From positions 81,562 through 145,561 of the forward strand of contig VKHL01000071.1 of the NCBI GenBank assembly GCA_015146655.1: DNA of 64,000 nt, in the 5' to 3' direction. Positions 3,648 through 63,640 of the stretch are shown piece by piece. Position 1 is the stretch's first letter; the number at the start of each line of letters is the position of its first letter. The position numbers and the translations under genes are program-made. Source of the DNA: Ochromonas danica (lineage: Eukaryota; Sar; Chrysophyceae; Chromulinales; Chromulinaceae). Under the pieces are notes generated by a model. The model had not been told where the DNA came from and did not search any database. It was given only the letters and a program-made list of their open reading frames with translations.

Positions 3648-6035
3648 CTAGACGGGGCGGAGGTGGAGGAACCAGCGTCGCCTCTTCTGCCCCGCCGTCC
3701 AGAGGTGGTCGAAGTAGCTCTGCACGTCCACGTGATGGCCGTGTTGGGGGCCTGGATGGCCGCGATAGAGCGTGATGGAGCCTTCCTCAGGACATCCTTC
3801 CTTCCTCAAGAAGAGCTCCTGCACTGTGATTCCCTGCTGCCCTCGCACTTCTTCCTCTTGTACCCGAGCATCGCGATAGTGTGCCGTGGCTGTGCGGGCG
3901 AGTAACATTCCATAGTTGAGATTGTCAGTGAGGATGGTCAAAGTGCCGCTCTCAGGCACAAGAAGACGGCGCAGCTGGGCAAGGAAAGGGGCGGTGAGCA
4001 GATGCGTCTTGGCTGCGTGTTGGTCCAGAGTGGTCTTGCCAGAGAGTCGCTGCTGACCTTGTTGGTCCGGAGGCTGAGGATAGTTGATGAAGATTCCCTC
4101 GACACAGGCTGAGGAGAGATGGCGAGAGACGATCTGCACCGCATCGCCTCCCAACACACACAAGTTGCTCTCACCAGGCACCACAGCATCATCATCATCT
4201 TCTTCGTCATTCTCTTGGGCTGCTTTAGCGTTAGTGTTAGCGTTAGTCAATCCAACTTGTTCTTCACAGCGAGTTTGAATATCTTTGAGTAAGATGTCAT
4301 GCGCTCTGTCCCAGCGCAACTCCAGCGCCAGCCAGTGAGCCTCCACAGTGGCAGTGGCAGTGCCTCTTCTGCTGCTGCCGCCGTGATTTCGATGATGTGC
4401 TGCCTGCGCCACCACCCAATCGCCATGGCCAGCGCCAACTTCCAAGAAGACTGGCGGCCTGCGCTTCTTGTCCTTCCCTTCCTGCTCTTCTTGTTCTTCT
4501 TCTTTCTCCTCGCGGATTGAGAAGACTTTAGACAAGTCTAACCGACCCTTCGCATCGAAGCAGCCGCGTAGTTTGGCCTCAGTGCGGAGGATTTCCTTCT
4601 CATGCCGAGCGAGCAGGGCGGGAGGGAAAGCTTTGGCTTGGCCCGTCACACTGAGACAAACCTCTTCCGGAGAAGTGCGCAGCAGACCAAGCTTCTCCTT
4701 AACTGCGAGGAACAGACCCTCTTGCACCTTCTCCTGCTGCTGCTGCACTGCTTCCTTTGCTAGCACCTCGTCATCGCGATCGCCTTGTCCATCGAAGCCG
4801 AAGTAAAGCATCTTCGACAGAGCGCGGGCATACCCTCGACAAGCACTCGCTATTACCCTCTCCTCCCCCTCGCTGGACGAGCTGGCAGGTCGCACGGCCA
4901 GAGCGTCTTCGAGCTGCTCGATCTCCGATGAGAGGAGAGTGTGCTTGTGTGCCTGGAACAGCTGCGAGGACTCGCCTCCTCCTCCTCCTGCTGCTGCCCC
5001 ATCCTCTTCGTGCAAAAGTTTCGCTCGCATCTTGCCAGCCAAGCGTCCAGCTGTGCTCTTCCGCACCAGTTCTTTGGCCACGTTGAGATGTTTGGCCGCC
5101 TCGCCGCGCAGGCCCAGCAAGAGAGAGACGCGAGCGAAGAGCACTTGCACACTGGCACTCTCGAGAGAGTCTCCAGGCAGCTGCAAGAGAACGAGGCGTG
5201 CGTCATCGAAACGCAGACTTCGACAGAGAAGCGACGCCATCGCCTCCAAGATAGCGCATCGATTCCAGTGGTCGCCCTGCTGCACCTCCTCCTCCTGCTG
5301 CTCCTGCTCAGCAGCTGCTCTCTCCAGTATGCGTGAGCCTTGAGAATAGGCCTGTAGCGCTCGTCCAATGGCACCAGTGCGCATGCATCCTCTCAAGAAG
5401 GTGGTGAGGGAGCGCAGGTTGTGCTCGCCGTGGCCGCGCATTTCCTCGTACAGCGCAGCCGCAGAGGCGATGCGTCCCAACTCGCAGTAGCCCTTCAGCA
5501 AGGTCGTGTAGGTCACCTCGTTAGGCTGCACGCCTTCGTCCTGCATGCGGCGCAACAGCGCAGCGCCTCCGTCGAGATCGTGGCAGCGCATGTGCACGTT
5601 GAGCAGATTGGTGAAGACGTGCACATCCAGCCGCAGCCCGCGCTTGACGTGCTGCTTGACGATCTGCTTGGCACGACTCAACTGCTTCTTCACAGCGAGG
5701 TCAGCCAGCTGTTTGACGAGGAAGTGAGTCATGGCCTTGGCCTCCTTGCGAGACAATTCCACACGAGCTTTCTTGGCAGGCCTCTCCTCCTCCTCTTCAT
5801 CCTCCTGCTCCTCTCCATGCTCCTCTTTCTTCTCCACACCCTCTTCTTCTACCAAGTCAGTCACTCCTGCTGGTTGGTCAGTGTAGGACTCGCCCAGGGC
5901 CGCCAGCTCGCTCTTCAACTTGCCGATCTTCTGGAAGATCCGCTTCTTCACCCTCGCAGCAAGCTCTGGCTCGGACTTGAGCCTCTCAGCATGTGCTGCG
6001 ATACGCGAGCGAATGTCAGCTGCCAAGTTCGTCAT
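3648..6035 (-). CDS. PPR-TrmB fusion protein (tRNA m7G methyltransferase-like)
   Basis: A 795-residue, single-exon protein joining an RNA-binding repeat region to a methyltransferase fold. Residues 1-100 are helical then acidic with a basic patch (PAKKARVELSRK). About 135-240 contain two to three pentatricopeptide repeats; the clearest are FTNLLNVHMRCHDLDGGAAL and VTYTTLLKGYCELGRIASAA. The C-terminal part (about 528-795) resembles TrmB/TRMT8: SAM-binding FLEVGAGHGDWVV near 530, LALELRWDRA near 570, and FINYPQPP near 648 where TrmB has a NxPDPW-like motif. TrmB makes m7G46 in tRNA. The Tyr-Pro-Gln-Pro version is divergent, so activity is uncertain. PPR proteins normally act on organelle RNA; no clear transit peptide is visible. 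Confidence 0.82.
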   Translation of the reverse strand: MTNLAADIRSRIAAHAERLKSEPELAARVKKRIFQKIGKLKSELAALGESYTDQPAGVTDLVEEEGVEKKEEHGEEQEDEEEEERPAKKARVELSRKEAKAMTHFLVKQLADLAVKKQLSRAKQIVKQHVKRGLRLDVHVFTNLLNVHMRCHDLDGGAALLRRMQDEGVQPNEVTYTTLLKGYCELGRIASAAALYEEMRGHGEHNLRSLTTFLRGCMRTGAIGRALQAYSQGSRILERAAAEQEQQEEEVQQGDHWNRCAILEAMASLLCRSLRFDDARLVLLQLPGDSLESASVQVLFARVSLLLGLRGEAAKHLNVAKELVRKSTAGRLAGKMRAKLLHEEDGAAAGGGGGESSQLFQAHKHTLLSSEIEQLEDALAVRPASSSSEGEERVIASACRGYARALSKMLYFGFDGQGDRDDEVLAKEAVQQQQEKVQEGLFLAVKEKLGLLRTSPEEVCLSVTGQAKAFPPALLARHEKEILRTEAKLRGCFDAKGRLDLSKVFSIREEKEEEQEEQEGKDKKRRPPVFLEVGAGHGDWVVAQAAHHRNHGGSSRRGTATATVEAHWLALELRWDRAHDILLKDIQTRCEEQVGLTNANTNAKAAQENDEEDDDDAVVPGESNLCVLGGDAVQIVSRHLSSACVEGIFINYPQPPDQQGQQRLSGKTTLDQHAAKTHLLTAPFLAQLRRLLVPESGTLTILTDNLNYGMLLARTATAHYRDARVQEEEVRGQQGITVQELFLRKEGCPEEGSITLYRGHPGPQHGHHVDVQSYFDHLWTAGQKRRRWFLHLRPV

Positions 6036-7857: not shown

Positions 7858-8362
7858 ATGAAAAAATTCAGGCAAGAGCATGAATTCGAAGAACGAAAAT
7901 TAGAATCAGAGCGAGTGCGAGCAAAATATCCTGATCGTATTCCTGGTGAGTTCTCCGCCTCTTTCTCTCTTCCCCTTCTCCGTCCCCTTACCTCTCGCCC
8001 CGGCCTTGTCTTTAGTTATCTGCGAGAAACTAGACAAGAGCAAAATGGAGGTAAGATATATCGTGTTGTTTTCTCCAAACATTCCTTCACTTCCGTCTCA
8101 CTCTGATCTCTCATGTGTGACGTCACCCTTTCTCCAGGATATCGACAAGAAGAAGTACCTGGTGCCTGCTGACCTCACCTGCGGGCAGTTCATCTATGTG
8201 ATTCGCAAGCGTTTAAAGCTTCCCTCAGAGAAGGCACTCTTCCTTTTCGTCAACGGATCTATTCCCCCCACCTCCGCTATGCTCAACGCCATCTACGATC
8301 AGCACAAGGACAAGGACGGCTTCCTCTACATGTGCTATTCTGAGGAGAATGTCTTCGGGTGA
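7858..8362 (+). CDS. ATG8: ATG8 copy A, ends in glycine
   Basis: Ubiquitin-like autophagy protein that is conjugated to phosphatidylethanolamine on autophagosomal membranes. Exons are 7858-7945, 8016-8050 and 8138-8362, phases 1 and 0, giving 115 residues. Family landmarks are the N-terminal helices ([20 protein letters not shown]), [28 protein letters not shown] and the C-terminal ENVFG. The stop codon follows the Gly directly, so the residue used for lipidation is already exposed and ATG4 priming would not be needed, though ATG4 could still delipidate. Start ATG 7858 gives [10 protein letters not shown] as in ATG8. It is the first of a tandem family reaching 18.7 kb. Confidence 0.93.
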
Positions 8363-8995: not shown

Positions 8996-9987
8996 ATGTT
9001 CAAAGAAAGCCATACCTTTGAGGAACGCGTGAAGGAATCAGAGCGTGTGCGAGCCAAATATCCTGATCGCATTCCCGGTCAGCATTTCCTCTGTCTTCTC
9101 TTCCCTCCCACCTCCTCTTCTCTTGTTGACTCTCTCTGATAACTCTACTCTGTCATTGTCTTCAGTCATCTGCGAGAAGGTGGAGACAAGCTCAATGGAG
9201 GTAATGATCCTTCACTTCCCTCTCTCTCTTATCTCTCATATATGATGTCACACCTTCCTCCCTACAGGATCTCGACAAGAAGAAGTATCTGGTGCCGTTT
9301 GACCTCATCTGTGGACACTTCAACTATATGATTCACAGGCGCTTAAAGCTTCCCTCAGAGAAGGCGCTCATCCTCTTCGTCAACGGATCTATTCCCCCCA
9401 TCTCAGCCACTATGTCAGAGTTGTATGACCAGCTCAAGGACAAGGACGGATTCCTTTACGAAGCTCGCGATCAGCTTCCTATACTACAGACTGTATTCAT
9501 TAATGAGAATGTGGAGACAGGGGAGGATAACGTAGTTTTGTCTCTGATTGCAATATTTTTTTTCATTATCTGCGCCATCTTCAGCATACCAATCAAGTCA
9601 GAATCCCCTGACGCCAGAGTCTCCACGCAAAAGAAGACTAGACTAAACTTCAGAGATCAGCTTGAATTTGAAGAACGAAAATTAGAAGCAGACAATAACC
9701 GAGCAAAATATCCCGATAGACTTTCTGGTGAGTTCTCTTCCCTCCCACCTCCTCTTCTCTTGTTGACTCTCTCTGATAACTCTACTCTGTCATTGTCTTC
9801 AGTCATCTGTGAGAAGGTGGAGACAAGCTCAATGGAGGTAATGATCCTTCACTTCCCTCTCTCTTATCTCTCATATATGATGTCAAAACCATATATCTCT
9901 CATATATACTCTACGCCGCCTGAAGGTGGAACCTTCAACCAGCTTGAACCTGGTGAGGTATTGCATCAACCCAAGGATGGGATATAA
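8996..9987 (+). CDS. ATG8 copies B and C fused: ATG8, TM segment, partial ATG8
   Basis: Predicted exons are 8996-9077, 9166-9200, 9268-9727 and 9803-9987 (253 residues). The first unit is a near-complete ATG8 ([12 protein letters not shown] to DKDGFLY), but the C-terminal YSEENVFG is replaced by EARDQLPILQ and the frame runs on. A strongly hydrophobic stretch follows (VVLSLIAIFFFIICAIF, a likely transmembrane helix), then a second ATG8 N-terminal part ([19 protein letters not shown]) and exon 2, after which no exon 3 exists. DNA coding the linker resembles the 5' leader of copy A, and the ATG that would start unit C is gone, so C can only be read as part of the fusion. Lipidation is unlikely because no C-terminal FG exists. 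It could be a decaying pseudogene; expression data would decide. Confidence 0.6.
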
Positions 9988-10107
9988 GAAGCAGATGCTG
10001 TCTTGAAAGTCTTCAAGAAGTCAACAAATTTCCTATTAATTACACAAATTAATTACACTCTGTCAACAAAATTCCTTTTACATTAATGCATAGACATTAA
10101 AACAACA

Positions 10108-11982
10108 TCACTTTAGCAAAACGCTGAGCAATTTTTCAACAGAGGGATCATTTACGTACGCCTCTATCTCAGCACAGGCAACAGCAATTACACCTCCCAA
10201 AGACTTGTAAAGAATTTCCACATCGCGTCTCCTGCTGATCTTGGTAGTTACTGTCTCTGACAAACGAAAGTCGATCCATTTCATAGCACCATTCAGAATC
10301 AACACGTTCTCGATGCGAGGGTCACCATGGATTACACAATGAGAATGTAGTCCACACAATGATACAGCCAGATCCCTCTTCAGCTCATTAGACACTGGAA
10401 GTACAATCCTTTGCCCTTCTTGAGCTAGCAGGTAACCAGCATACTGAACGCCTCCAACTTCGCCCCTTCGATATGATCCTTCGACCAGAGGAAACACGAG
10501 AGACGTGATAGCTTCACACCTGTAGTGCTGCTGCATCAACAGATACTCCTTCTCTACTTCGTCGCTCTTTAGACCCAGAACGATCTTAATCACTTGGCCA
10601 TTTATCAATCGGAACACTCGACCATTGGCTCCAGTCCCCAGCCACGCAGAGAGATCTTCTTCGCTATTTGAGTAGTCCACAATGGACACACCCAACTCCT
10701 TACACAGAGCATTCGTCGCCTCCAGCCATGGGTTGTTTCCTTGTAAGAACTCTATCAGAAGTTCTTTCGAGCCACGCTGACACCATTGGCATTTCTTAAC
10801 CTCAATGATAGTGTTTCCAGATGACTTAATCATCCAAAACTGGTCCTTGTCGAACAATACACCTTTTAGTTTCAACGCCACACCGTTGTGATCAAAACAA
10901 TCTTCACCAGCAATCTGAAGGTACTTGCACTTCTCTCCGAATGCCTGCATGTCAATTTTCCACTTGGCATCCCAAATGCAGTGAATACTCGAACGACTCT
11001 CCCAACTAACGAATTTACCAAACAATCGCTTTACAGTACACATAGGAGCATTGTTGTAAGGTGACGAGTATTGAATAAGAGGATGGTACGCCGAAAACAA
11101 ATCTGGCTTCAGATCAGATTTGCGATGACCGCTCATACAGCGAAGCCACTGAAAATACTCACTATTCACCAGCCGAAGGTCAGGGTTCACCTCTTTTACT
11201 ACTTCTATCAATGCTGGTGTGTATAAATTCACCAGATGTTGCTCATGCGGTCTTGGAGTCTGATTGTAGATCAATGTGGCCGCATCAATCAAATTACCAG
11301 TCATGATTACAGCTCCAGTACCCTCCGAAGCCTCCTTGATGTTGCCAGTCATCAATAAACTGTTGTAAATAGCCATACCGTGATCAGTGTTAGAGGCCGA
11401 TACTTTATTGAGTCCAGATTGTGGCGGCATTTCCAGTTCATCCAGTCGAAGTGTTTGTCGTTTAACTTCAGAGCTCACATTCTGAACGGCAAAGCTCACT
11501 TTCTTCATGTTTTCGTTCATTTCCTTGATTTCATTCTCCAAACCTATTTTTGAAAGAAATTAGAAAGCGAAGTAAAGAAATAAATACGTAATGCTACAAC
11601 CATTTGTCATAGCAGTCTCACCTCTTTTTGAGTCCATCAGTATGAGCTCCTTTTCTTGTAATAGATTCTTTTCTTTTAGTAATAGAACTTTTTCTTCTTG
11701 TAATCGTTTCTTTTCTTCTTCTAACTCTTCTTTTTTCATTCCTACATATGCTATCAACTGTTCTTGTAACAGCTCATCTGTCGTAACTAATGGAATCTTC
11801 GACTTCAAATCATTTTTTCTTTCTTGCTGTTCTCCTTCGCTAAAATTCTCGAAAGAAGCTAAAGCGAGCTTGACAAATTTAACCTCTGCAATGACCTCAT
11901 CTAATGTCATCTTAACTTTCGTTGGAAGGAATTCTTTTCCTTGTCCCATCAGAGAGACAGGATATTCCATGGAATATTCCAT
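10108..11982 (-). CDS. CR/crinkler-type effector-like: coiled coil, nuclease-like, kinase
   Basis: Two exons, 11982-11622 and 11543-10108, join in phase to a protein of about 598 residues. Residues 70-140 form a Lys/Glu-rich coiled coil. About 200-400 contain KSDLKPDLFSAY and, 46 residues on, IWDAKWKID; the D ... DxK spacing resembles PD-(D/E)XK nuclease-fold domains. From about 420 a small kinase-like domain follows: GTGANGRVFRL (Gly loop), GQVIKIV (Lys), HGDPRIENVL (catalytic loop, HGD) and WIDFRLSE (DFR for DFG). From established knowledge, nuclease-like plus kinase modules occur in Crinkler-RHS-type effectors of oomycetes, fungi and other eukaryotes. No secretion signal or LxLFLAK header is visible, so 'effector' is only a family label. 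Start ATG 11982. Confidence 0.7.
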
Positions 11983-12500
11983 GGATACGAAATAGAAACG
12001 TCGGATTTTGCAAAAGGACTAAAAGGTGACTTTCTTGTAAGTCACCAAGCCCACAATGTTGAAATCAATGATATTTATCACCTTCAGCCGACACACCCAG
12101 ATTTAGCTAACCACCTATTCTAGCAGTAAGATTTGGTAGCAGCTGCCAAGGGATCTTCCACACTGTGCGCACGTTGGATGACTCTTGAGTTAGGTGACTG
12201 TCACAGTGCTTATTGAGTCAGGTGTTTCAGAGATTCAGATCTCTCTGTCTTGTCTGAGTGCAGAAGATCGAGAGGAGTGGTGATTGTCTTCTCTGTCTTT
12301 CTTACTGATGACTGAGGCAGCACCACTCATATCGACTCGACAATATCCTATCCTCTTTCTCACTCAATAGTGCTAGCGATGCTACTTTAAATGCTGTAAA
12401 TAACTCTAATACTAACACTACTACTACTATTGCTACTTCCTCCTCCCTTCTAACGGATCCATGGCATGCCGTCGAAAGAAAAAAAAAGAAAGAAATATCA
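11983..12500. other. Intergenic region, no gene seen
   Basis: Separates the CR-type gene from the piggyBac remnant. Codon-like stretches are short and broken. A palindromic TATTCCATGGAATATTCCATGG stretch overlaps the start codon of the minus-strand gene at 11963-11984. Short ACTACTACT runs occur near 12410-12425. Confidence 0.55.
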
Positions 12501-13038
12501 GTCGACCGACCTGAGTCTATTGAACTGCTTTTTAAAGGTTTTCCAATTGTGGACATACATGATCACAACCGCCAGGGTGCTCTAGCAATTGAACACTCTT
12601 GGAAGACACAAAAGAGCCTTTTCCACCGTCTGGGGAATGATTATCGTCGATTCATTCTTCTGCTTCCGCCACATCTTCCGCTCCAAACATCCAGAAGAAA
12701 CAGAAAACTGTCCAACCTTAATCGACTTTGCTGACAAACTGGCGTACCAAATGATCTACGACAATGCAACAAGTGGGGAAGAAGATGAAGCAACGACATC
12801 AAACAGTGTGCTAGGCAAACGTTCCATCGAATCCAGCGTTGAGTATCACCGCTTAACACCAACGAGCACTTTGGCGCGAGCAAAAGGAGATTATCCGCAA
12901 TTACGATGCATGATCTGTAAAAAGCAGACCCGGCTGTTTTGTAGAACTTGCTACGAGAAGGATAATGTGCTGATTGGCATTTGTAGTGAAGAAAGGAGTC
13001 CAGAGAGCACCTGCCTTCAGCAACACAAATCTTGTTAA
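12501..13038 (+). pseudogene. piggyBac-type transposase remnant, frameshifted
   Basis: The frame at 12501 reads VDRPESIELLFKGFPIVDIHDHNRQGALAIEHSWKT, in which VDIHDHNRQG...LAIEHSWKT matches the third-Asp region of piggyBac transposases (DDE_Tnp_1_7). Near 12610-12625 the similarity moves to another frame, reading VWGMIIVDSFFCFRHIF. This continues to a Cys-rich end, CMICKKQTRLFCRTCYEKDNVLIGIC, like the C-terminal zinc-binding domain of the family. The N-terminal two thirds are missing. The frameshift and truncation make it a dead copy. Confidence 0.75.
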
Positions 13039-13092
13039 AACTTAGCAAAGTGACTGGATGTTTGTTAAGTTTTAATTAAAAACTGAATCAAT

Positions 13093-13416
13093 CTACTTCA
13101 TTTGATCTGTGGGAATTCCAGCTCCAAGACTCTTGTACTGATCAAATTGGTTTGCTAACATATCTACTCTCGAAAAGAAAGTTTGAATGTCTTCTCTGGG
13201 CTTGTATCTGTTGTTTTCCCAGCGGTTGCATAAGTCACAATAACCAGCCTCTAAAGTAACTGGTGAATATAATTCACATATTCTTTTCCATGCAATATAA
13301 AGATTGCCATTTTTAAATTCTTCTTCCACTTGTCTAATCACGAGAGGGTGAATAACTTCAGTAAATAGTTCGACAGCTTTGAGATTACCATAGTGACCTA
13401 GATCTAGCCTCGTCTA
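13093..13416 (-). pseudogene. Copia-type gag (UBN2) fragment
   Basis: A minus-strand open stretch reads LKAVELFTEVIHPLVIRQVEEEF, then AWKRICELYSPVT, then a run ending FFSRVDMLANQFDQYKSLG. The pattern W..L...Y...(x~40)..F......L...G is that of the gag-like UBN2 domain of Ty1/Copia retrotransposons. It is open on both sides only to nearby stops and lacks protease, integrase and reverse transcriptase, so it is a fragment. Confidence 0.6.
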
Positions 13417-13750
13417 GGGCCCTGGTTTCTCAACAAATCTGTTTGAAGACTTCGTTATAAACCGTACCTTTGAGTGAAAATATCGCTTACTTTAGAGTCA
13501 TTGATACTATTTTCCGTTGAAAACAAGGAAACTTGGAGTCTTTCTAGACATCCAAGTGAGCTCTGTGTGACTGACTATCTTTCGCTGAAATCTTTTTCCC
13601 TTTTCATTCAAACTCTTTCAAATTTCTAGGCATTATACCTCTAAATGAGGCAATTATAATGACCATAACAAGTTACCAAAAATATTCTTTCGGTCGTTCA
13701 AAAATAAGTAAAAATACTTAAAGTATCTCCAAGCGACCCAAAGCGCCTAA

Positions 13751-14083
13751 ATTGCATGGGTACACGGGAAAGGCGACAAGGCGATCTCTGGTCCCAATGC
13801 AGTCAAGATCACACCACAGCAGGCCGCGAAGCTAATGTGGCTGGTGGGAACTGTAGAAGGTGCTATAAAATATCCCGATGATCCTTTTATGATGGCCAGC
13901 CCAACGGGACAAAGGAAGTTTCTGTTCCTCGATCTGCTGCATCCCTCACAGATCAAGGCATACATGAGCAGGACGAACAAGAGCCTGCGTGATCTCTTTG
14001 AGAAGCATAATCGGAGCGAATCCAACATGCTCTTTCAAGAGGGGGAGGTGGAAGATGCGGAAGAAGATAGCGAAGATGATTAA
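13751..14083 (+). CDS. Unrecognised acidic-tailed ORF, possibly a gene fragment
   Basis: The frame is open from 13751 to the stop at 14081-14083. The first ATG is at 13835 (83 residues), but protein-like sequence begins before it (AWVHGKGDKAISGPNAVK). The body is mixed and natural-looking (DPFMMASPTGQRKFLFLDLL, QIKAYMSRTNKSLRDLFEKH). The end is acidic (EGEVEDAEEDSEDD). I do not recognise a family. Lack of an upstream ATG in frame and the surrounding transposon remnants suggest the 3' end of a larger lost gene or an element-borne coding fragment. Confidence 0.4.
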   Translation: MAWVHGKGDKAISGPNAVKITPQQAAKLMWLVGTVEGAIKYPDDPFMMASPTGQRKFLFLDLLHPSQIKAYMSRTNKSLRDLFEKHNRSESNMLFQEGEVEDAEEDSEDD

Positions 14084-14718
14084 CAACAGCTAGTAGTTAT
14101 GTACATATACATCACCACAGTTTCTACCATTTAAATGAAGCATGAACTAACTGGCACAGAGAAAAGAAGAGAACCATCATTGTAGATCAAGAGAAAGCAA
14201 CCGTCCCTATCAAGATGATAAGAAGTATCCTAAGGATACAACAAAATACAGTGCTTTCAAGAGGGCGACATCACAAAAAGTGTGGTATAGCGCAAAAAGG
14301 CAGCCAACCAACATGATAGATGAAACATCAGCGCTAGCACTTTAGTCTTCTAAAGAACTGAGATTATTAGACAAGAGATTGCACCGTCGCACTCTAACCC
14401 AAATCATCCTCGGCAGTGCCATCCAGTCATCAAGATGTCTTGGTTGCTCATCATCTTGGTTGTATCTTGTTGAGCCAACCAAGATGATGAGCAACCAAGA
14501 CAAGGATGACCAACCGTGTTGTTGAAAAGCAGGACCAAAAACGGGTTTCGCAATTAACCCAGCCAGAGCCGCAGATTCATATAAATTAAGTGCGCTAGGC
14601 AGCTTATTAAAATGTATAATCGAAGCTGAATAAATGCCATAACATACAGAACCAAAATTGATAGGCTAATTATGCAAAATGATTTGCGCTGTGGTCGACC
14701 GATTCCACGCAATGGGCT
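14084..14718. other. Intergenic region with hairpin
   Basis: No gene seen. It holds the perfect 26-bp inverted repeat listed separately and ends at the 32-bp repeat block upstream of the next ATG8 unit. Confidence 0.6.
14437..14501. repeat. Perfect 26-bp inverted repeat (hairpin)
   Basis: Arms 14437-14462 and 14476-14501 are exact reverse complements (GTCTTGGTTGCTCATCATCT... in the left arm), with a 13-base loop. A transcript would form a stable stem of the length expected for small-RNA precursors. Confidence 0.85.
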
Positions 14719-14792
14719 TTAAGTTAACTGAACACTCTCCCAACTCTCTCTTAAGTTAACTGAACACCCTCCCAACTCTCTCTTAAGTTAAC
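14719..14792 (+). promoter_or_regulatory. 32-bp tandem units with TTAAGTTAAC upstream of ATG8 D/E
   Basis: TTAAGTTAAC occurs at 14719, 14751 and 14783, exactly 32 bp apart. The spacer reads TGAACACTCTCCCAACTCTC. The last unit lies about 105 bp before the ATG at 14897. The same block precedes copies F and G. Confidence 0.7.
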
Positions 14793-14896
14793 TGTTAACT
14801 TGTTGTGCTGCTGTGCTCCTCTCTCAACAACAAACAACAACTACTTCCAGTAGAATAAAAGAAATCCATCAACACCCACATCATCACTCCAAAATA

Positions 14897-15873
14897 ATGA
14901 AGTTCAAAGAAAGTCATACCTTTGAGGAACGCGTGAAGGAATCAGAGCGTGTGCGAGCCAAATATCCTGATCGCATTCCCGGTCAGCATTTCCTCTGTCT
15001 TCTCTTCCCTCCCACCTCCTCTTCTCTTGTTGACTCTCTCAGATAACTCTACTCTGTCATTGTTCTCCCATCTCAGCCACCATGTCAGAGTTCCATGACC
15101 AGCACAAGGTCAAAGATGGATTCCCTTTCTTGCGCTTCAATGATCTGCCACTCGCTGCAGTCATCAGCGATTGCGTGACACAAATGATAATGATGATTGT
15201 AAAGATGGTTGAGCTATTCATGCAATTTGTGTTTATTGTTCCCGCCATGTTGCTCTATAAAATATGTATCACACCAACCAGATCAGCATCTCCTCTCTCC
15301 ACGCCAGGCAAGACCACACTAAACTTCAGAGAAAAGTATAAATTTGAAGTACGAAAATTAGAAGCAGACCATTTGCGAGCCAAATATCCTGATCGCATTC
15401 CCGGTCAGCATTTCCTCTGTCTTCTCTTCCCTCCCACCTCCTCTTCTCTTGTTGACTCTCTCTGATAACTCTACTCTGTCATTGTCTTCAGTCATCTGTG
15501 AGAAGGTGGAGACAAGCTCAATGGAGGTAATGATCCTTCACTTCCCTCTCTCTTATCTCTCATATATGATGTCACACCTTCCTCCCTACAGGATCTCGAC
15601 AAGAAGAAGTATCTGGTGCCGTTTGACCTCATCTGTGGACACTTCAACTATATGATTATCAAACGCTTAAAGTTTCCCGCTGAGAAGGCGCTCTTCTTCT
15701 TCGTCAACGGATCTATTCCCCCAGTCTCAGCTACTATGTCACAGTTGTATGACCAGCACAAGGACAAAGACGGATTCCTTTACATTTCTTACTCTGAAGT
15801 TGTTTCGTCCTACCACTTCCTGAGGATGACGTATCTGTCATTCTTTCCACATAAACGAACTGATCGTTATTGA
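14897..15873 (+). CDS. ATG8 copies D and E fused: N-terminal exon, TM segment, full ATG8
   Basis: Exons 14897-14981, 15077-15403, 15492-15526 and 15592-15873 splice in phase to 242 residues. Unit D supplies only its first exon ([13 protein letters not shown]...YPDRIP) and the end of its third (ATMSEFHDQHKVKDGF); the part between is deleted. A hydrophobic segment follows (VKMVELFMQFVFIVPAMLLY), then LNFREKYKFEVRKLEADHL and a complete ATG8 core ([38 protein letters not shown]). The C-terminus ends YISYSEVVSSYHFL...KRTDRY with no FG, so classical lipidation is not expected. The design parallels the B/C fusion, with the start codon of the inner unit lost. A promoter-like repeat block precedes it. 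It may be a membrane-anchored ATG8 variant or a decaying copy. Confidence 0.6.
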
Positions 15874-16289
15874 TTTGTTTGTGGCAGATCTCATGCCCTA
15901 TTGACTACTTTGTCTCCTCTGCAATGTATCTTGGATGATGATAACGATATTAAGATCACCTCTTAACTTAGATGTGATGTTGTGTTAGTTGGCAGGTTAT
16001 AGACGTCTTCCACTTGTTAAGGCAACTGTCAGCTCCAGTCCCCATGTCATACACTCTCTTTGCTTCTCACTCGAAGACAAGCAGTGAGTGTAGAGCGAAA
16101 TAAGAGAAGAAGCGATAGAAGTGTGTGAATGATCCAGGAGGCGATCCTATATGAGGAAGGTCAGCATACAATCAAACAGAACATTTTAGACCGTAAGTGC
16201 TAATTGTTTGTTTCTCGCGTAGCATGGTTATGATATGATTATCCTGTCCCTGCCTTGGAAGAGGATTCAAAGTTCTTCGAGTTCGCTGC
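15874..16289. other. Intergenic region 3' of ATG8 D/E
   Basis: No gene of confidence. A minus-strand 60-codon open frame (16172-16354) overlaps the long hairpin and reads SKLMEVLSDLQVLIEQQDSQ, probably a fragment of an unrecognised coding sequence. Confidence 0.5.
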
Positions 16290-16415
16290 CTCTGCGAATC
16301 TTGCTGCTCGATGAGAACCTGGAGATCGCTCAGCACTTCCATCAGTTTGCTCAAATAAGCCGATCGAAGTGCTGAGCGATCTCCAGGTTCTCATCGAGCA
16401 GCAAGATTCGCAGAG
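16290..16415. repeat. Perfect 50-bp inverted repeat (hairpin)
   Basis: Arms 16290-16339 and 16366-16415 are exact reverse complements over 50 bases, separated by a 26-base loop. The left arm begins CTCTGCGAATCTTGCTGCTC. The arm sequence is open in frame on the minus strand (SDLQVLIEQQ), so this looks like an inverted duplication of coding DNA, able to form a long hairpin RNA. Confidence 0.9.
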
Positions 16416-16433
16416 CCAAGAGGCAACTGCCTC

Positions 16434-16530
16434 TTAAGTTAACTCAACACTCTCCTTTAAGTTAACTGAACACTCTCCCAACTCTCTCTTAAGTTAACTG
16501 AACACCCTCCCAACTCTCTCTTAAGTTAAC
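16434..16530 (+). promoter_or_regulatory. 32-bp tandem units with TTAAGTTAAC upstream of ATG8 F
   Basis: The decamer TTAAGTTAAC lies at 16434, 16457, 16489 and 16521; the last three are 32 bp apart. From 16457 to about 16799 the sequence is almost identical to 14719-15060, a recent duplication of leader, exon 1 and intron 1. Confidence 0.72.
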
Positions 16531-16634
16531 TGTTAACTTGTTGTGCTGCTGTGCTCCTCTCTCAACAACAAACAACAACTACTTCCAGTAGAATAAAAGA
16601 AATCCATCAACACCCACATCATCACTCCAAAATA

Positions 16635-17132
16635 ATGAAGTTCAAAGAAAGTCATACCTTTGAGGAACGCGTGAAGGAATCAGAGCGTGTGCGAGCCAAA
16701 TATCCTGATCGCATTCCCGGTCAGCATTTCCTCTGTCTTCTCTTCCCTCCCACCTCCTCTTCTCTTGTTGACTCTCTCAGATAACTCTACTCTGTCATTG
16801 TCTTCAGTCATCTGTGAGAAGGTGGAGACAAGCTCAATGGAGGTAATGATCCTTCACTTCCCTCTCTCTTATCTCTCATATATGATGTCACACCTTCCTC
16901 CCTACAGGATCTCGACAAGAAGAAGTATCTGGTGCCGGTTGACCTCACTTGCGGGCAGCTCATCTATGTGATCCGCAAGCGCTTAAAGTTTCCCTCAGAG
17001 AAGGCGCTCTTCTTCTTCGTCAACGGATCTATTCCCCCAAACTCAGCCACTATGTCGGCCGTGTATGACCAGCACAAGGACAAGGACGGATTCCTTTACA
17101 CGTATTTTGGTGAGGAGAATGTCTTTGGGTGA
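16635..17132 (+). CDS. ATG8: ATG8 copy F, ends in glycine
   Basis: Exons 16635-16719, 16808-16842 and 16908-17132 encode 114 residues with all ATG8 landmarks: [54 protein letters not shown] and a C-terminal EENVFG directly before TGA. As in copy A, the lipidation Gly is exposed without ATG4 cleavage. The leader and first exon duplicate those of copy D. Downstream lies a copied fragment of the RNA polymerase gene, so this unit was probably duplicated together with its right flank from the copy G locus. It appears intact and likely functional. Confidence 0.92.
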
Positions 17133-17189: not shown

Positions 17190-17465
17190 AGTTCGACCAT
17201 CGTAGCTTGTAATCGCTCTTAGTCACTTCTCGAATTTCAAGAGTGCCTCTCTTGGGCAACTCGGGCAGATTAAGATCCGGGAAGCGACGCGCTATCGAGT
17301 CGCGCAAGTTCTCGAGGATGGGGTACTCGTACAGCTCGACGAAAGACTCTCGCAGACACTGGGCAAGAATAGGAGCATCTGCTTGTTAATGAGTCAAGGA
17401 GTGCTTCCAAGATAGTCCCAGCCTTCTAACACTGTTTTAATATTCGCTTTAGAACTATTTAGCTC
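17190..17465 (-). pseudogene. Truncated duplicate of mitochondrial RNA polymerase 3' end
   Basis: The segment from about 17210 to 17391 matches the 3' coding end of the polymerase gene at 18832-19001 (LRDSIARRFPDLNLPELPKR in the minus frame) but lacks its stop region. At about 17380 it jumps to sequence matching 20417-20500 of the same gene, deleting some 1.4 kb. The flank before it (17134-17209) matches 18693-18768. It is a non-functional by-product of segmental duplication. Confidence 0.88.
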
Positions 17466-18213: not shown

Positions 18214-18688
18214 ATGAAGTTCAAAGAAAGCCATACCTTTGAGGAACGCGTGAAGGAATCAGAGCGTGTGCGAGCCAAATATCCTGATCGCATTCCCGGT
18301 CAGCATTTCCTCTGTCTTCTCTTCCCTCCCACCTCCTCTTCTCTTGTTGACTCTCTCTGATAACTCTACTCTGTCATTGTCTTCAGTCATCTGCGAGAAA
18401 GCAGAGACAAGCGCAAAGGAGATGATCCTTTACTATATACTTGACGTAGCACCCCGCCTGGATATCGACAAGAAGAAGTATCTGTTGCCTGCTGACCTCA
18501 CCTGCGGGCAGTTCATCCATGTGATCCGCAGGCGCTTAAAGCTTCCCTCTGAGAAGGCGATCTTCCTCTTCGTCAACGGATCTATTCCGCCCACCTCAGC
18601 TACTATGTCAGAGTTGAATGACCAGCACAAGGACAAAGACGGATTCCTTTACTTGTGCTTCGGCGAGGAGAATGTCTTTGGGCGATGA
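18214..18688 (+). CDS. ATG8: ATG8 copy G with exonised intron and C-terminal FGR
   Basis: Exons 18214-18298 and 18387-18688 give 128 residues. Intron 2 of the other copies has lost its GT donor (GAGATGATC instead of GAGGTAATGATC) and shrunk to an in-frame insert, [13 protein letters not shown], between the SAKE and [12 protein letters not shown] parts. The C-terminus is EENVFGR, so unlike copies A and F an ATG4-type protease must remove the last Arg before lipidation. An in-frame ATG at 18172 could add MEQIHQHPHHHSKI; the shorter start matches the other copies. The insert falls at the join between the N-terminal helices and the ubiquitin fold, so the core may still fold. It lies tail to tail with the RNA polymerase gene. 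Confidence 0.85.
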
Positions 18689-18817: not shown

Positions 18818-21637
18818 TTAATGGAAAAAGTAATCGCTCTTAGTCACTTCTCGAATTTCAAGAGTGCCTCTCTTGGGCAACTCGGGCAGATTAAGATCCG
18901 GGAAGCGACGCGCTATCGAGTCGCGCAAGTTCTCGAGGATGGGGTACTCGTACAGCTCGACGAAAGACTCTCGCAGACACTGGGCAAGAATAGGAGCATC
19001 TGAGGGATGCGTCCAAAAGGAATCGTGCACGGCAGCAAAGCTGAGTCCTCTCTCTTTCATGCGCAGAGAGGTCAGCAACATATGCGTGGCGTCGAGAGAG
19101 TGCACGAAGTTGGGAGGGAAAGCTGTCTTCTGCTTGCGACTTTCCACAGGCAAGTAGTCACTATTGAGAGCCAAGACAACACGCTGCAAGACAGTATTGA
19201 TAGAGTGACGAGCTTGCTTGCGATAAGGCTGGGCAACGGGCAGATTAAGAGGAGTCATCCAAGACATGCTATAGCCCTGGGCGGACACCATATTGGAGGT
19301 GACCGCCAACCAGTCCATGATCTCCTTCGCACTCTTGAACATCTCTCGAAGAGACTCCAAGGTGGTCTTTGCCAAATACTTGGCAGCCTGATCAATCTCC
19401 TGCTCCAGGGCGGGGGTCATGATGCGTTTGCTTTGCGCACCATTAGAAGTGAAATACTCCTCCAAACGAGAACGAATCTGATTCTTTGCACCAATGGCCG
19501 TCACTCCGTAGACACTTGTCATCACTGTTTGCTTGATCACCTTACGAGAAATCACAGGACGAACTAAACGTGCCAGATGACCATTCTTAGCGACCAAAGG
19601 GTCCTGATGGTCCTCAGGGATCAACTCATCCTGAGATAACTTGCGGCTGACTATCTCCAAAACTTTTGTGTAGACATCCTGTGGGCTGTCTGAAGGGACA
19701 AGGTTGACTGCCTTGCCTCCCAGCTCATCTCTGCCGATACCAGCATAATGCTGCAGACCGTTACAAGAGCCGTCCTGATGCACGGGCAGGCTGCAGCGAT
19801 AGCTTGTGGGATCATCTAAAGCATAGGCGTTAGCCAATTCATAGCAAGTAGCCAATGCCTGGAAAGGACTTTCAGCCTTGGCCCACCACATGTTTCCTTC
19901 CAAAGGTCTCTGTGCGCTCTCAAGGACGTTGCTCATATTCTCGTCCACCCAGGCTACTCGATCATCGAAAGAGATCTTGTTAATACCCCACAAGTTCGCC
20001 AGATGGATCTTTAACCATCGAAGACCTTCAGGGCCCACTTCTTTGGCGACAGAGAATCGCAGCAAACCTCTGCATAAATCAGATCCAATATGCGAGAGGT
20101 TGGGTGGTACAGGGTAAGCTCGACCACGGAAATCCATATTATGTGGGAAATAGATAACATCATTGATAAACTGTTGAGCAATGGAAAGCTTGATATTCAT
20201 ATCACAACGCAAAGAATGTAATTCAGCATTGCGTTTGAGCACACGCTTTGTCATTTGATTGAAGAGAACTCTGTCCACTTGAGGGGTAGCGTTCTCGCCT
20301 TCTCCAGCCACCATGAAATCTTCTTCTTTAGGCAAAGTGACGTTTTCTCTCGATGGGACCTCTCCAATCAACAGACCCCGTTCTAGTGCCTGAGTGATCA
20401 CCTCGTAGACCTCCTTGTTAATGCGCCAAGGAGTGCTACCAAGATAGTCCAAGCCTTCTAAGACTGTTTTAATATTTGCCTTTTGAACTATTTCCATCTG
20501 AGAGCGGGTATAGTGCTTCATCAGGGGGGCGCGAAGGTGGATATAGGCCCCATAGTACTGCTTGTTATTCCAGGGCTGGGGTGGCACCAACATTGGCAGC
20601 AGACGGGGGAAGACCAGACGCTTCTGTTGCGACTCATCGACACTATTAAACGCTGCAGTAGTCATAAATAAGACAGATGCTCTCTTCTGCGAACGAGGAT
20701 TAAACTCCGTGGAGCAGGTGAAAACAGGCTCTCCTCCCTCCAGCTTCACCTCTCGCACCAGCGTCTCTAACAAAAACCCGCCGATCTTGGCCTTCAGTGC
20801 AAGACTCCATGGCTCTTTATCATTGAGAATGCGCTTGACACTCCTATAGAGAGCACGCACTTCTTTCTTGTTCTTGTTATTTCGTAACTCTAGTAACTTC
20901 TTCTTGGCGAAGGTGTCCTCCTTGTCCTTCTGTTGCCGCAGTTTCTCCATATTGTACTCAATCTCCAACAGAGAACCAATCTCACTCAACAAGACCGCAA
21001 TCTTAACACCAGCATTGCCAGCCCGCAAGATGGCTCCGATGACAGTGTCCAAAGTGACGACCGCCACCTTCTGCACCGGCAGGGTGAGGAGGTAAGGACC
21101 ATAGATGGAGCGATCGACACCACTCTCACGCATTTCGATCTTCTGACCTTCGTTTGCCAAGGCAATGACGAAAGGCTCGTACCAGTTAACGAGGTTTCGC
21201 TTCACATTCTGTGTGCTGGTGCTCTGCCCCACAGACTGCAAGTTCTTGATCAACTGAATGCGCTCCTCAGAAGCAGCCAGATATTGATCCATCTCTATCT
21301 TAATTTGTCTCTCATAAAGACTCAAGGCTTTCTCTTGATTGCGGTGAGCGACGGACTTGTCAGGATGAGCTTTGGCCTCCTCCAGTACTCGCTTGAAAGT
21401 GGCCATGACAGAATAGGCATTGGTCACTCCGAACTGCTTTAATTTCTGGTCCAAGGATTGGATAGGATTGACATTAAAAGAAGGTGGAGAATGCGCAGGA
21501 GGTACGGTGGAAAAGTCTGGTTCCACGTTAAGATGATTGCTGACAGCAGGCAGAACAGAAGAAAAGACACGCCGAGCTGATTGCGACGGAAATTGGATTC
21601 GGCCTGAGACCTTTACTCTATTCCTAGCTAGCAACAT
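18818..21637 (-). CDS. POLRMT: Mitochondrial (T7-like) RNA polymerase
   Basis: Single-subunit phage-type RNA polymerase of 939 residues in one exon. The N-terminus (MLLARNRVKVSGRIQFPSQS...) is basic, Ser/Arg rich and free of acids, as a mitochondrial presequence. Conserved blocks are PHNMDFRGRAYPVP, motif A VHQDGSCNGLQHYAG with the first metal Asp, motif B SRKVIKQTVMTSVYG, and motif C AAVHDSFWTHP with the second Asp. The C-terminus is SDYFFH. The length is in the usual range for such enzymes. It transcribes organelle DNA; if the organism has a plastid, a plastid-targeted paralogue could exist elsewhere. A broken copy of its 3' end lies at 17.2-17.5 kb. Confidence 0.96.
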   Translation of the reverse strand: MLLARNRVKVSGRIQFPSQSARRVFSSVLPAVSNHLNVEPDFSTVPPAHSPPSFNVNPIQSLDQKLKQFGVTNAYSVMATFKRVLEEAKAHPDKSVAHRNQEKALSLYERQIKIEMDQYLAASEERIQLIKNLQSVGQSTSTQNVKRNLVNWYEPFVIALANEGQKIEMRESGVDRSIYGPYLLTLPVQKVAVVTLDTVIGAILRAGNAGVKIAVLLSEIGSLLEIEYNMEKLRQQKDKEDTFAKKKLLELRNNKNKKEVRALYRSVKRILNDKEPWSLALKAKIGGFLLETLVREVKLEGGEPVFTCSTEFNPRSQKRASVLFMTTAAFNSVDESQQKRLVFPRLLPMLVPPQPWNNKQYYGAYIHLRAPLMKHYTRSQMEIVQKANIKTVLEGLDYLGSTPWRINKEVYEVITQALERGLLIGEVPSRENVTLPKEEDFMVAGEGENATPQVDRVLFNQMTKRVLKRNAELHSLRCDMNIKLSIAQQFINDVIYFPHNMDFRGRAYPVPPNLSHIGSDLCRGLLRFSVAKEVGPEGLRWLKIHLANLWGINKISFDDRVAWVDENMSNVLESAQRPLEGNMWWAKAESPFQALATCYELANAYALDDPTSYRCSLPVHQDGSCNGLQHYAGIGRDELGGKAVNLVPSDSPQDVYTKVLEIVSRKLSQDELIPEDHQDPLVAKNGHLARLVRPVISRKVIKQTVMTSVYGVTAIGAKNQIRSRLEEYFTSNGAQSKRIMTPALEQEIDQAAKYLAKTTLESLREMFKSAKEIMDWLAVTSNMVSAQGYSMSWMTPLNLPVAQPYRKQARHSINTVLQRVVLALNSDYLPVESRKQKTAFPPNFVHSLDATHMLLTSLRMKERGLSFAAVHDSFWTHPSDAPILAQCLRESFVELYEYPILENLRDSIARRFPDLNLPELPKRGTLEIREVTKSDYFFH

Positions 21638-22182
21638 GGCATAGAATGGTAGAGGTAAGGCTGGACAGGTAGGGATCGGGACAAGATGACGATGACGAGG
21701 AATGGAGTTGTTCGATCTGGTTGGCCAAGGCAGCGCTGGTTGGCTGAGTGTGTGTGTGTGTGTGTGTCACTGGCGGTGTGTGTTCTGCAGCTCTGCTGTT
21801 CTGTGGAGAGAGGGCCTTCACCCCCGCCATTCCTTGAAACCCTGCTTTTCTGAGATTTTACTCTCATTTCGCTATATATATTCACTTCTCTTTTCCACCT
21901 CTCTGAAGGCAGAACGAGCGACGATCCCCACGCAAACATAATTACCGTTCGGATTAACTTTATGGTTATCTACACCGTAAACCATAGCACAGCTGTGATT
22001 GCAAGTCTTAGACCCACTTAAACCACACAATTGCTAGCTTATCTAGGTTAGTTATATCAAGATTTCAACTTTTCCGCCAGACTGTGGAGAGACAGTCGCA
22101 CCAGTTGAAGTCTCGTAGTTTAAAGATGGTTGGATAGGGTACAGTAACTTGGACAAGTGCTGGGAGTGTGCTTAGACCTATC
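21638..22182. other. Intergenic region with (TG)n
   Basis: Upstream of the RNA polymerase gene and 3' of ATG3. It contains a TG dinucleotide run at 21747-21767. No coding sequence is seen. Confidence 0.6.
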
Positions 22183-23136
22183 TTATGACAGCTGAACATC
22201 GCTAGTGTAATCATACTCAATTGTGGGGACAACAGATTGGATGAACTTCAAGAAGATGAAGAAGTATTTGTCCACGGTAGGCGTCACACCGCTTTCCTGT
22301 AGCGCCTTGATTATAGTGAGCATTGCTGGCGCGTGTTGGCAAGGGTGAATAGAAGCTATAACAAAATGAAAACCCCGTATGAAAAGGAGCTATCAGGATT
22401 GACTAGGTCATAATAGAGTCTTACCGTGTGGCGCAGAGAGGTGCGGGTGAGGATCAATCGTTACGGTGCGCTTGGCATAGTCTTGAATGACATCTTCAAA
22501 GATCGCCTCAGGAGAGAGGACACTGCCGCTCTCATCGTATCCAAACAGCCAAATGCGAGGCGTGCGGTAGTAGTTGTCGTAAGTGATGGAGACGTCGTAT
22601 CTCCTCGCACTCAATAGGTGGTCCTCCTCTCCTTTGCACGGGTCCGCTGTTGCGGCATCAAGCTCAAGTCCTTCTTCTTCTAAGTCTAGGTGACTGCTAG
22701 CGGCGGCTGGGGTAGCAGCTTTGGCAAGGGGGGCAGGGGGGAGGAGGGACTTCTGAGGATCTCGCACACTCGCCCATTCGTCCGAAATACTCGCAGAATT
22801 TACATCAACGAAGTCATCATTGCCTGGCTTGCCTTCGGCGCCTTCTTCCGCTCTTTCCACGTCCTCGTCCAGCTCAGCGCCGGCCAGCGAGGAGACGCGA
22901 TGATAAGAAGGCACGCCATCCGTGGCTAAGAACTGTTTATTGGGGGGCAAGTATGGCCTTTGTTTGGAGGCCTCACCACTTTCCCACCTCCAGGAGGGAC
23001 AGTTGGCCACCAGCTGGTCCCCTGCCCGCACAAACTCCTCGGGAGTCAGCATGCCCTTCTCAAGAAATACAGACTCTGTGAGCACGGGGGTGAGATATTC
23101 TCTAGCGCTTTTAAACAGTTGGAAAGCTCCTTCCAT
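22183..23136 (-). CDS. ATG3: ATG3, E2-like enzyme for ATG8 lipidation
   Basis: Exons 23136-22425 and 22355-22183 join in phase 1 to 294 residues. The N-terminus (FKSAREYLTPVLTESVFLEKGMLTPEEFVRAGDQLV) is the membrane-sensing helix and first part of the E2 fold. An acidic, poorly conserved linker follows. The C-terminal half reads YDVSITYDNYYRTPRIWLFGYDE and, in exon 2, SIHPCQHAPAM with the catalytic Cys in HPC. The end, KFIQSVVPTIEYDYT, is diagnostic for ATG3. ATG3 accepts ATG8 from ATG7 and passes it to phosphatidylethanolamine. Without splicing the HPC motif would be missed. It sits about 4.4 kb from the last ATG8 copy, and a reverse-strand TTAAGTTAAC lies upstream (23246-23255). Confidence 0.96.
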
Positions 23137-62045: not shown

Positions 62046-63640
62046 TTAGCAAGAACGCTCAAATGTTGCGTCGGCCTACTTTTGCAGCGGAAAGACTAAG
62101 ATCTCACTTGATCATGCGCTCGATTGTCATGAATGCAAAGGGACCCATTACGGTTTATCGAATTGGAATCAGATGTGTCAAAAGCAGTTTGTATATGTTG
62201 ATCGAACCAAAGCTATTGCGCAACTGGACGCAGAGACAGTCCATTCCTGTCTATGGAGCCCACGCAGAACGGGGAAAACATTGCTGGTCAACCAACTGGC
62301 GCTTTGGCATGACAAAGCCATCACGGAAAAAGAGGTATATCGTTTTTATTATTTTGACTGGGCATTTTGTTCGACTGCTAATGTTTTGTTTTTCCAGCGC
62401 ACGGAGCTGTTCTCCGGTACGTACATCGGACAAAATCCAAGTTGTGAAGCTGGCAGATACCTGGTTCTCGCCATGGACTTCAGTAAGGTAAGAGGTGTAA
62501 ACATAACGGCAAGCTTCACGGAAGTGGTGAATGCGTCGGTCTCCAAATTTTCGAAGAAGTATCGCAAGGCGGGCCTTCTGGATGAAGATGTGACAATAAG
62601 CGACAATGATTTCACGTCCAGCCTCTCGAACTTAGCCACAGTTGTTGAGTTGAGCGGCCACAAACTCTCTTTGATCGTCGACGAGGTCGATTCATTTGCT
62701 AATCGCCTCCTTGTTCAAGTCAGCCGCGAGAAAGGCCTGGACAACTCTGGATACCACGAGTTCGTCAAGAAAGAAGGTTCAGTTTTACGTGATTTCGGTC
62801 GAGTGGTGAAGGCAGAGAGCAGCACTTGCATCGAACGTATGTTCTTCACAGGCGTGATGCCAGTGGCGTGGTCCGACGCCTTCTCCTCTCTCAACACGGT
62901 AGAGGACCTCACACATACCAACGCATTTCAAAATACTCTCGGCTTCAAGAGCAGCGAAATCGAGGAGTTGCTGGTGCTGCTGTTCCCGGGGATGGACCCC
63001 GAAGAGCGTGGCATGCACTTGGAGTCGATCAGAAACAAATGCAACGGATATCGCCGCTCATCAGCACAAGGGTAAGGTTTATACAATGCACAGGGAGTGT
63101 GGTACTACCTGAAACAACTGCAGGACAAGGGCGACCAGATGGTGCCCCGCATGGACCCTAACATCGTGCAGCCGGCGAGTGACGAGGTGGCAGCCTTCTT
63201 GGTGAAGCACGCTGCTGGTGAGTTCACGCTAACATAATCTGATTCGACCGTTTGCTAATGTTTATCGTTTGTTTTCAACAGCGACGAAGACGTACTCACC
63301 ACTGCACTTCTTTAACGGAGCCATCCCTTTCAGTCCTCTCCAGACATTCTCCGCAGAGTCTCTCTTCGACCCGGTGCGAGCGCCAGATGCTCTGCTCAGC
63401 ATGGCCTACTATTGCGGCTACCTGTCGTTCCAATACCCGAAGCATGAGGTGTACGGAGATGTTCTGGTGGCACCGAATGATGAAATGAGAGACGTTTTCA
63501 TGGATGCTGTTTTGCAGAGTCTTCCCGGTGATTATCAGAAGTTGGCATTAGAATGGATGGCGAAGAACGTGCCGCGCGCTGTCGCACTGAAAGATGCTTA
63601 CGATGCGCACGTTACGGGAAACCTGCCTAATGTGAAATAG
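62046..63640 (+). pseudogene. CR-effector-type P-loop NTPase with in-frame stop
   Basis: One frame is open from 62046 (SGKTKISLDHAL...GLSNWNQM) into CQKQFVYVDRTKAIAQLDAE, then LWSPRRTGKTLLVNQLALWH (Walker A, RRTGKT), LSLIVDEVDSFANRL (Walker B) and FFTGVMPVAWSDAFSS. This is the arrangement of the AAA-ATPase-like family linked to crinkler/RHS proteins and their relatives. A 63-bp in-frame intron at 62335-62397 (TGCTAATG branch) is likely. After KCNGYRRSSAQG a TAA at 63073-63075 interrupts the frame, yet the same frame continues GLYNAQGVWYYLKQLQDKGD and, after an intron at 63218-63281, TYSPLHFFNGAIPFSPLQTF to 63640. A single nonsense mutation in an otherwise intact gene is the simplest reading. 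The start exon is unresolved. Confidence 0.7.

Follow-up and report, generated by a model that had tools for sequence, protein, structure and literature searches.

A 64 kb window of the Ochromonas danica genome (contig VKHL01000071.1, forward-strand positions 81,562 to 145,561; coordinates below are those of the window) holds a tandem array of ATG8 genes. Two of its members, BC (8996-10006, +) and DE (14897-15873, +), each combine parts of two ATG8 units with a hydrophobic segment. On balance we take BC and DE to be recombination chimeras of the array, truncated later and now decaying, and not a new autophagy component. This reading is preferred because the array contains sharp-edged exact repeats, because B and E differ in their exons and hardly in their introns, and because C and E lack the same start codon. 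It is preferred also because B and E have lost conserved positions, the signal of selection is weak, and the structural model of BC has fewer strands than that of an ordinary copy. In 5′ to 3′ order the array comprises A, BC, an insert with other open reading frames (ORFs), DE, F and G. The local ATG8 gene plan has three exons: the first encodes the N-terminal helices, the second is 35 nt long, and the third supplies the bulk of the ubiquitin-like fold.

The BC frame is open across GT-AG introns. EukProt, whose models were used for comparison, has it as one fused model, P0121 (gene6610, 230 aa), which matches the spliced window DNA letter for letter; the entry is a cluster of two member sequences. 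Its five exons are 8996-9077, 9166-9200, 9268-9727, 9803-9837 and 9926-10006. The original prediction had ended BC at 9987, and the frame can indeed be read to that point, giving 253 aa, but in the EukProt model 9838-9925 is an intron and the stop falls at 10006. The product matches the ATG8 profile PF02991 with 142.3 bits (curated cut-off 27 bits) over profile positions 1-95 of 104. The body of the core, B (9268-9459, +), is exon 3 as far as GFLY. From there on a changed end, EARDQLPILQTVFINENVETGEDN, takes the place of the customary C-terminal strand and Phe-Gly and is followed by the hydrophobic segment VVLSLIAIFFFIICAIFSI (9532-9588, +; residues 128-146 of P0121). The sequence ENVETG lies internal to the chain, and there is no C-terminal aromatic-Gly for conjugation by ATG7 and ATG3. 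Leader-like linker DNA (9589-9639, +), similar to copy A's 5′ leader and now coding, runs into C (9640-9837, +). This consists of an N-terminal exon without its start codon, an intron and exon 2; exon 3 is absent and the sequence 3′ of exon 2 is unrelated. BC has a single near-complete ATG8 core, on its N-terminal side, and its second ATG8 part amounts to the first two small exons only.

The DE frame is likewise open and in phase via three GT-AG introns (predicted exons 14897-14981, 15077-15403, 15492-15526 and 15592-15873), giving 242 aa. No EukProt model of it was seen among the 115 matches to the DE protein or among the best 120 of 3288 matches in another search. D is composed of a 5′ part (promoter region, exon 1 and most of intron 1; 14717-15063, +) and an exon 3 remnant (15077-15129, +) that is the last part of ATG8 exon 3. 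Exon 1 is joined to the end of exon 3, exon 2 and most of exon 3 being absent, and the putative splice acceptor is former exon DNA immediately upstream of 15077. The ORF of D and the linker scores 17.3 bits against PF02991, under the cut-off. After the hydrophobic stretch (15145-15270, +) comes E (15316-15873, +), a near-complete ATG8 core without a start codon, made of the N-terminal exon, exon 2 and exon 3 up to YSE. The E exon scores 97.5 bits against PF02991; its terminus, YSEVVSSYHF..., is an out-of-family tail and ENVFG is absent. The lone near-complete core of DE is on the C-terminal side, at the opposite end from that of BC, and the Phe-Gly terminus for lipidation is missing from both. 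Of the ATG8-membrane segment-ATG8 architecture originally proposed, the hydrophobic segment is found in each gene but a pair of units in neither, as C is without exon 3 and D without exon 2 and the greater part of exon 3. The compatible splice phases were foreseen correctly, as was loss of the ATG of the second unit, which begins RLNF in C and TLNF in E, in place of MKKF in A.

The DNA of the array is a mosaic. The segment 14717-15063 at D is identical to 16455-16801 on the F side (347/347), with an edge within intron 1 at 15063/15064; the 5′ part of D is a zero-divergence patch taken from F. A second exact repeat (17209-17381 = 18830-19002, 173/173) places a duplicate of the 3′ end of an RNA polymerase gene behind F. 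The EukProt model P0122 (gene6613) opens with the entire F and continues beyond its stop, heading toward this duplicate. Intron 1 is near-identical among B, C, D, E, F and G (73/75 to 88/88 where aligned). Between B and E, no difference was found in 153 aligned intron bases, apart from one 2-nt indel, as against 15 differences in 192 bases of exon 3 (Fisher p 0.0002 for exon versus intron). We read this combination of intron likeness and exon 3 divergence as gene conversion; faster replacement in exon 3 would give the same picture.

The chimeric cores have also lost family features. Among 47 columns in which at least 95% of 39 other ATG8 proteins share one residue, A keeps 46, F and G 42 each, and B and E 37 each; the losses common to B and E lie within and before GQFxYVIRKR. 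For exon 3, the ratio of non-synonymous to synonymous substitution (dN/dS) is 0.17-0.30 when A is compared with B, E, F and G. The original prediction had named neutral dN/dS in both fusions as a point against it. The N-terminal exon of C-E comes close, at 0.93; exon 3 of B-E gives 0.49, a value whose difference from 1 is not significant (p 0.19). The other N-terminal exon values are 0.86 (A-C), 0.61 (A-E), 0.29 (A-F), 0.70 (C-F) and 1.01 (E-F). The AlphaFold model of BC has two strands of at least three residues and helices at 127-144 and 167-186, with a mean predicted local distance difference test score (pLDDT) of 68.4; a control model of copy A from the same 42 sequences has four strands and a mean pLDDT of 93.3. 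The homologues cover mainly the first 105 residues of BC, which was folded whole with its linker, and the modelled strand loss may be technical in part. A PDB search with the BC model gave 50 listed rows, of which 49 name an ATG8-type protein or complex and one is untitled. The root-mean-square deviations of 4.7-6.2 over about 103 columns indicate that the fit to ATG8 structures is loose.

The original prediction treated the fusions as independent, which now appears doubtful. The start codon is replaced in C and E alike, and in the 87-nt N-terminal exon C and E agree against A at 11 sites, while C agrees with A against E at 5 and E with A against C at 9. With F as a fourth row, C and E agree against A and F at just 4 sites. 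Together the shared lost start and the site counts favour, modestly, a single fusion with subsequent duplication. The DNA encoding the hydrophobic stretches of BC and DE shows some likeness (local z 3.3, equalled by 5/500 shuffles), but the alignment is poor, with 80/115 aligned bases identical and 48 gap columns. When the BC linker plus C exon was searched against the genome itself, 8 matches were found at E≤1, 7 in the array and 1 weak match elsewhere (E 0.07). This query reaches the DE segment at E 7e-10 (50% over query 29-88), a score to which the homologous N-terminal exon contributes much. A single fusion, duplicated later, is likely though not proven.

The alternative would be that read-through fusion onto an A-like leader happened twice, separately, and that both products are now decaying; we consider it unlikely, although part of the evidence leans that way. 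The peptides of the hydrophobic part are not significantly alike (z 1.25, equalled by 222/2000 shuffles), and the linker peptides match each other no better than E 0.028, in a stretch that follows the hydrophobic segment. The leader-like DNA of BC is as near to A (37/44, 23 gap columns) as to DE (33/44, 18 gap columns), or nearer, and identity in the N-terminal exon is barely higher for C-E (69/87) than for A-E (67/87; A-C 65/85). Against two fusions stand the common replaced start codon, the site counts, the likeness of the DNA of the hydrophobic part and the improbability, by chance, of a pair of open linkers.

The hydrophobic segments were scored by the best 19-residue Kyte-Doolittle mean, which is 3.09 for BC and 2.16 for the longer, weaker stretch of DE. 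From sequence, the chimera products, if made, would probably insert in a membrane. The BC segment has an acidic N-terminal flank and a basic C-terminal flank. By the positive-inside rule, under which the more basic flank stays in the cytosol, the ATG8 core of BC is predicted to be non-cytosolic. As for the source of the segment, the original prediction derived the BC linker, membrane segment included, from the leader of copy A. The end of the linker does match that leader (local score 37, against 21.7 ± 3.4 for shuffles, 0/300 equal). The match begins at about 9568, however, and about two-thirds of the segment lies 5′ of it; a leader of the copy A type was therefore not the source of most of the segment, and its position mostly excludes it as the origin. 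The 3′ untranslated region of copy A was also tried, and its alignment is suggestive only (z 1.7, 38/500 shuffles equal). Comparison of the BC and DE segment DNA with the 3′ ends of E, F and G and the 5′ region of B gave z ≤0.7 throughout, and DE segment DNA gave z -1.0 against the 3′ end of A and 1.3 against its 5′ region.

Several results weigh against simple decay after a single fusion. The support for a single origin is itself modest, as the site counts and the C-E and A-E identities above indicate. Every one of the six pairwise exon 3 comparisons among B, E, F and G gives a dN/dS under 1 (0.36-0.73). The open frames are also hard to reconcile with long neutrality. In a simulation that presumes one fusion preceding all divergence, on loci chosen for being open, the shared 321-nt region stayed open in both copies in 660/4000 neutral runs at 15% divergence without indels, in 18/4000 at 25% divergence with 0.05 indels per substitution, and in 0/4000 at 40% divergence with 0.1 indels per substitution. 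The linker alone is less telling, with both copies still open after 2077 to 20 of 4000 runs. If there was one fusion, selection may have kept the frame for a time. If there were two, linkers were open in 159/4000 (BC) and 148/4000 (DE) shuffles, and a Kyte-Doolittle value of 1.6 was attained by 3/159 of the open BC and 17/148 of the open DE shuffles, so that the BC segment would be unexpected by chance. Probably the fused frame was coding for some time and constraint is now weak or nil; given the open frames, translation into a protein is a real possibility.

These points lend some weight to a working membrane-anchored ATG8, in which BC or DE or both would act without lipidation as a constitutive docking site or decoy for receptors bearing LC3-interacting regions (LIRs). 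We judge this distinctly improbable. The frames are open, the BC segment is strongly hydrophobic and each core retains 37/47 conserved positions. Lipidation-independent recruitment of Atg8 by Hfl1 is known in yeasts, and Atg8 tethered to mitochondria bypasses a mitophagy receptor, as reported in PMC8176713 and PMC8997447. Set against this are the common losses of B and E before and in GQFxYVIRKR, the missing last-strand sequence of BC after GFLY, and flank charges that would put its core outside the cytosol. The linkers, moreover, have no relatives at E≤1 among the 349 proteins compared, where the BC peptide matches its own model P0121 only and the DE peptide nothing. Of the membrane-anchored autophagy component first proposed, in-frame chimeras with a hydrophobic segment survive; an autophagic function does not fit well with the loss of 10/47 conserved positions and of Phe-Gly.

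Alternatively, BC could be an expressed membrane protein outside autophagy, its ATG8 part a leftover fold. The single EukProt gene model, the open-frame simulation and the divergence of exon 3 beyond that of the introns are in keeping with such a neofunctionalised gene. The EukProt set also runs F beyond its stop (P0122), however, which makes the BC model weak evidence, and conversion accounts for the intron similarity; we hold this to be improbable as well. A more speculative proposal, which we would give little credence, is that a true ATG8-membrane segment-ATG8 gene was born once in this lineage and that its two descendants keep one core each, on opposite sides of the helix, at least one being translated, anchored constitutively in a membrane and titrating or docking LIR-bearing receptors without lipidation. 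These alternatives overlap and are not mutually exclusive. Misjoining of near-identical reads during assembly, chiefly at the D/F duplicate, is very improbable: the exact 347-bp and 173-bp repeats could outrun short reads, but the flanks differ between repeat copies, BC lies outside both repeats, and EukProt has a BC model, though possibly one derived from the same assembly.

If BC and DE are decaying chimeras, the order of events that we infer would be as follows. Unequal crossing-over or a deletion would have fused the end of one ATG8 copy with the leader of another, resembling A, most likely in a single event. The stop of the first unit would have been lost and the intervening T-rich DNA turned into the hydrophobic segment. 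After duplication of the fused gene, exon 3 of the second unit would have been dropped from the BC copy, and in the DE copy the first unit would have lost exon 2 together with the larger part of exon 3; very recently, DE would have acquired its promoter and exon 1 from F through conversion or a crossover. Any proteins made from the two genes would be ATG8 relatives unable to be lipidated and most likely idle in autophagy, their genes moving toward pseudogenes.

Normal ATG8 work would be done by A, and perhaps also by F and G, which read as separate ATG8 genes with Phe-Gly or Phe-Gly-Arg termini. Copy A (7858-8362, +) is an ordinary three-exon gene ending in ENVFG-stop, whose spliced product is identical to EukProt P0001 (gene6609). 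F (16635-17132, +) also has three exons and ends in ENVFG-stop. G (18214-18688, +) ends in ENVFGR-stop and its spliced product is identical to P0002 (gene6614); in place of intron 2 it has a 39-nt stretch (18422-18460), coding in the EukProt model, directly before the DIDKKKY segment. Genome-wide (31.2 Mb, 337 contigs) there are at least five PF02991 exon matches, a lower bound, and 5/5 lie inside the array. Family matches to ATG4, to ATG3 and a second Autophagy_act_C protein, and to the N-terminal domain of ATG7 indicate that ordinary ATG8 lipidation is likely available. An ATG3-type gene (about 22183-23136, -; PF03987, 166 bits), with an HPC that we take to be the active-site motif, lies near the array, separated from it by a phage-type RNA polymerase gene (18818-21766, -), so that ATG8 and the gene of its E2 enzyme are almost neighbours. 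In a tree of 20 rows (the query and 19 from a list of at least 120), the mitochondrial-type RNA polymerase groups with rows named Ochromonas and ChrysophyteH1 in a clade with 100/100 support; a metagenome protein from a close relative, P0230, is 94% identical to it across the searched part of the polymerase.

Within the array, the insert has an ORF at 10108-12018 (-) whose kinase match (PF00069, 19.9 bits) falls short of the cut-off of 31.7 and, beside it, a charged ORF of coiled-coil-like appearance without a Pfam match. A further ORF (13093-13413, -), also without a Pfam match, is presumably a piece of a retrotransposon gag gene. A search of phage records with the insert at 13000-14700 gave no matches. 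Between E and F lies an inverted repeat (16287-16418) with 62-nt arms, 94% complementary, and an 8-nt spacer. Elsewhere in the window, an ORF at 3648-6035 (-) has pentatricopeptide repeats and a Methyltransf_4 domain in one frame, and one at 62050-63075 (+) matches AAA-ATPase_like (PF09820, 101.6 bits).

If translated, the chimeras would be natural experiments in swapping the lipid anchor of ATG8 for a protein helix; in yeast, according to PMC8176713, such a fusion is insufficient for one Atg8 function. Even decaying, they show a protist ATG8 locus shedding in-frame chimeras through recombination. The literature searched, which comprised titles and abstract openings and left subscription journals mostly uncovered, yielded no naturally occurring ATG8 that carries a membrane segment of its own, and the same fusion was not found beyond the array among the 115 matches of the DE protein search.

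The chimeras belong with the ATG8/LC3/GABARAP family in that BC and the E exon match PF02991 and share the exon structure common to A and F; they differ in having no terminal Phe-Gly, in their altered conserved positions, and in the added hydrophobic segment and ATG8 fragments. Tandem arrays are a known source of chimeric and degenerate copies, which arise there through gene conversion and unequal crossing-over. BC and DE resemble such products in their mosaic identity blocks, sharp-edged exact repeats and missing exons, and are unlike them in that their junctions are in frame and bear a hydrophobic segment.

In yeast, transmembrane segments emerge from thymine-rich non-genic DNA, as reported in PMC7005711. 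The likeness is that T-rich DNA beyond the canonical coding part encodes a hydrophobic helix; what emerges there, in that account, is a free new ORF, whereas here the helix is added to an old gene family and its non-coding origin is probable only. A functional parallel would be Hfl1-Atg8. Hfl1 gives a working lipid-free recruitment of Atg8 in yeast, for which direct fusion to another vacuolar protein is no substitute, according to PMC8176713. If the anchored reading held, both would be cases of ATG8 held at a membrane without lipidation; in the yeast system, as described in PMC8176713 and PMC8997447, a separate membrane protein binds Atg8, whereas in Ochromonas danica the helix would be fused to it.

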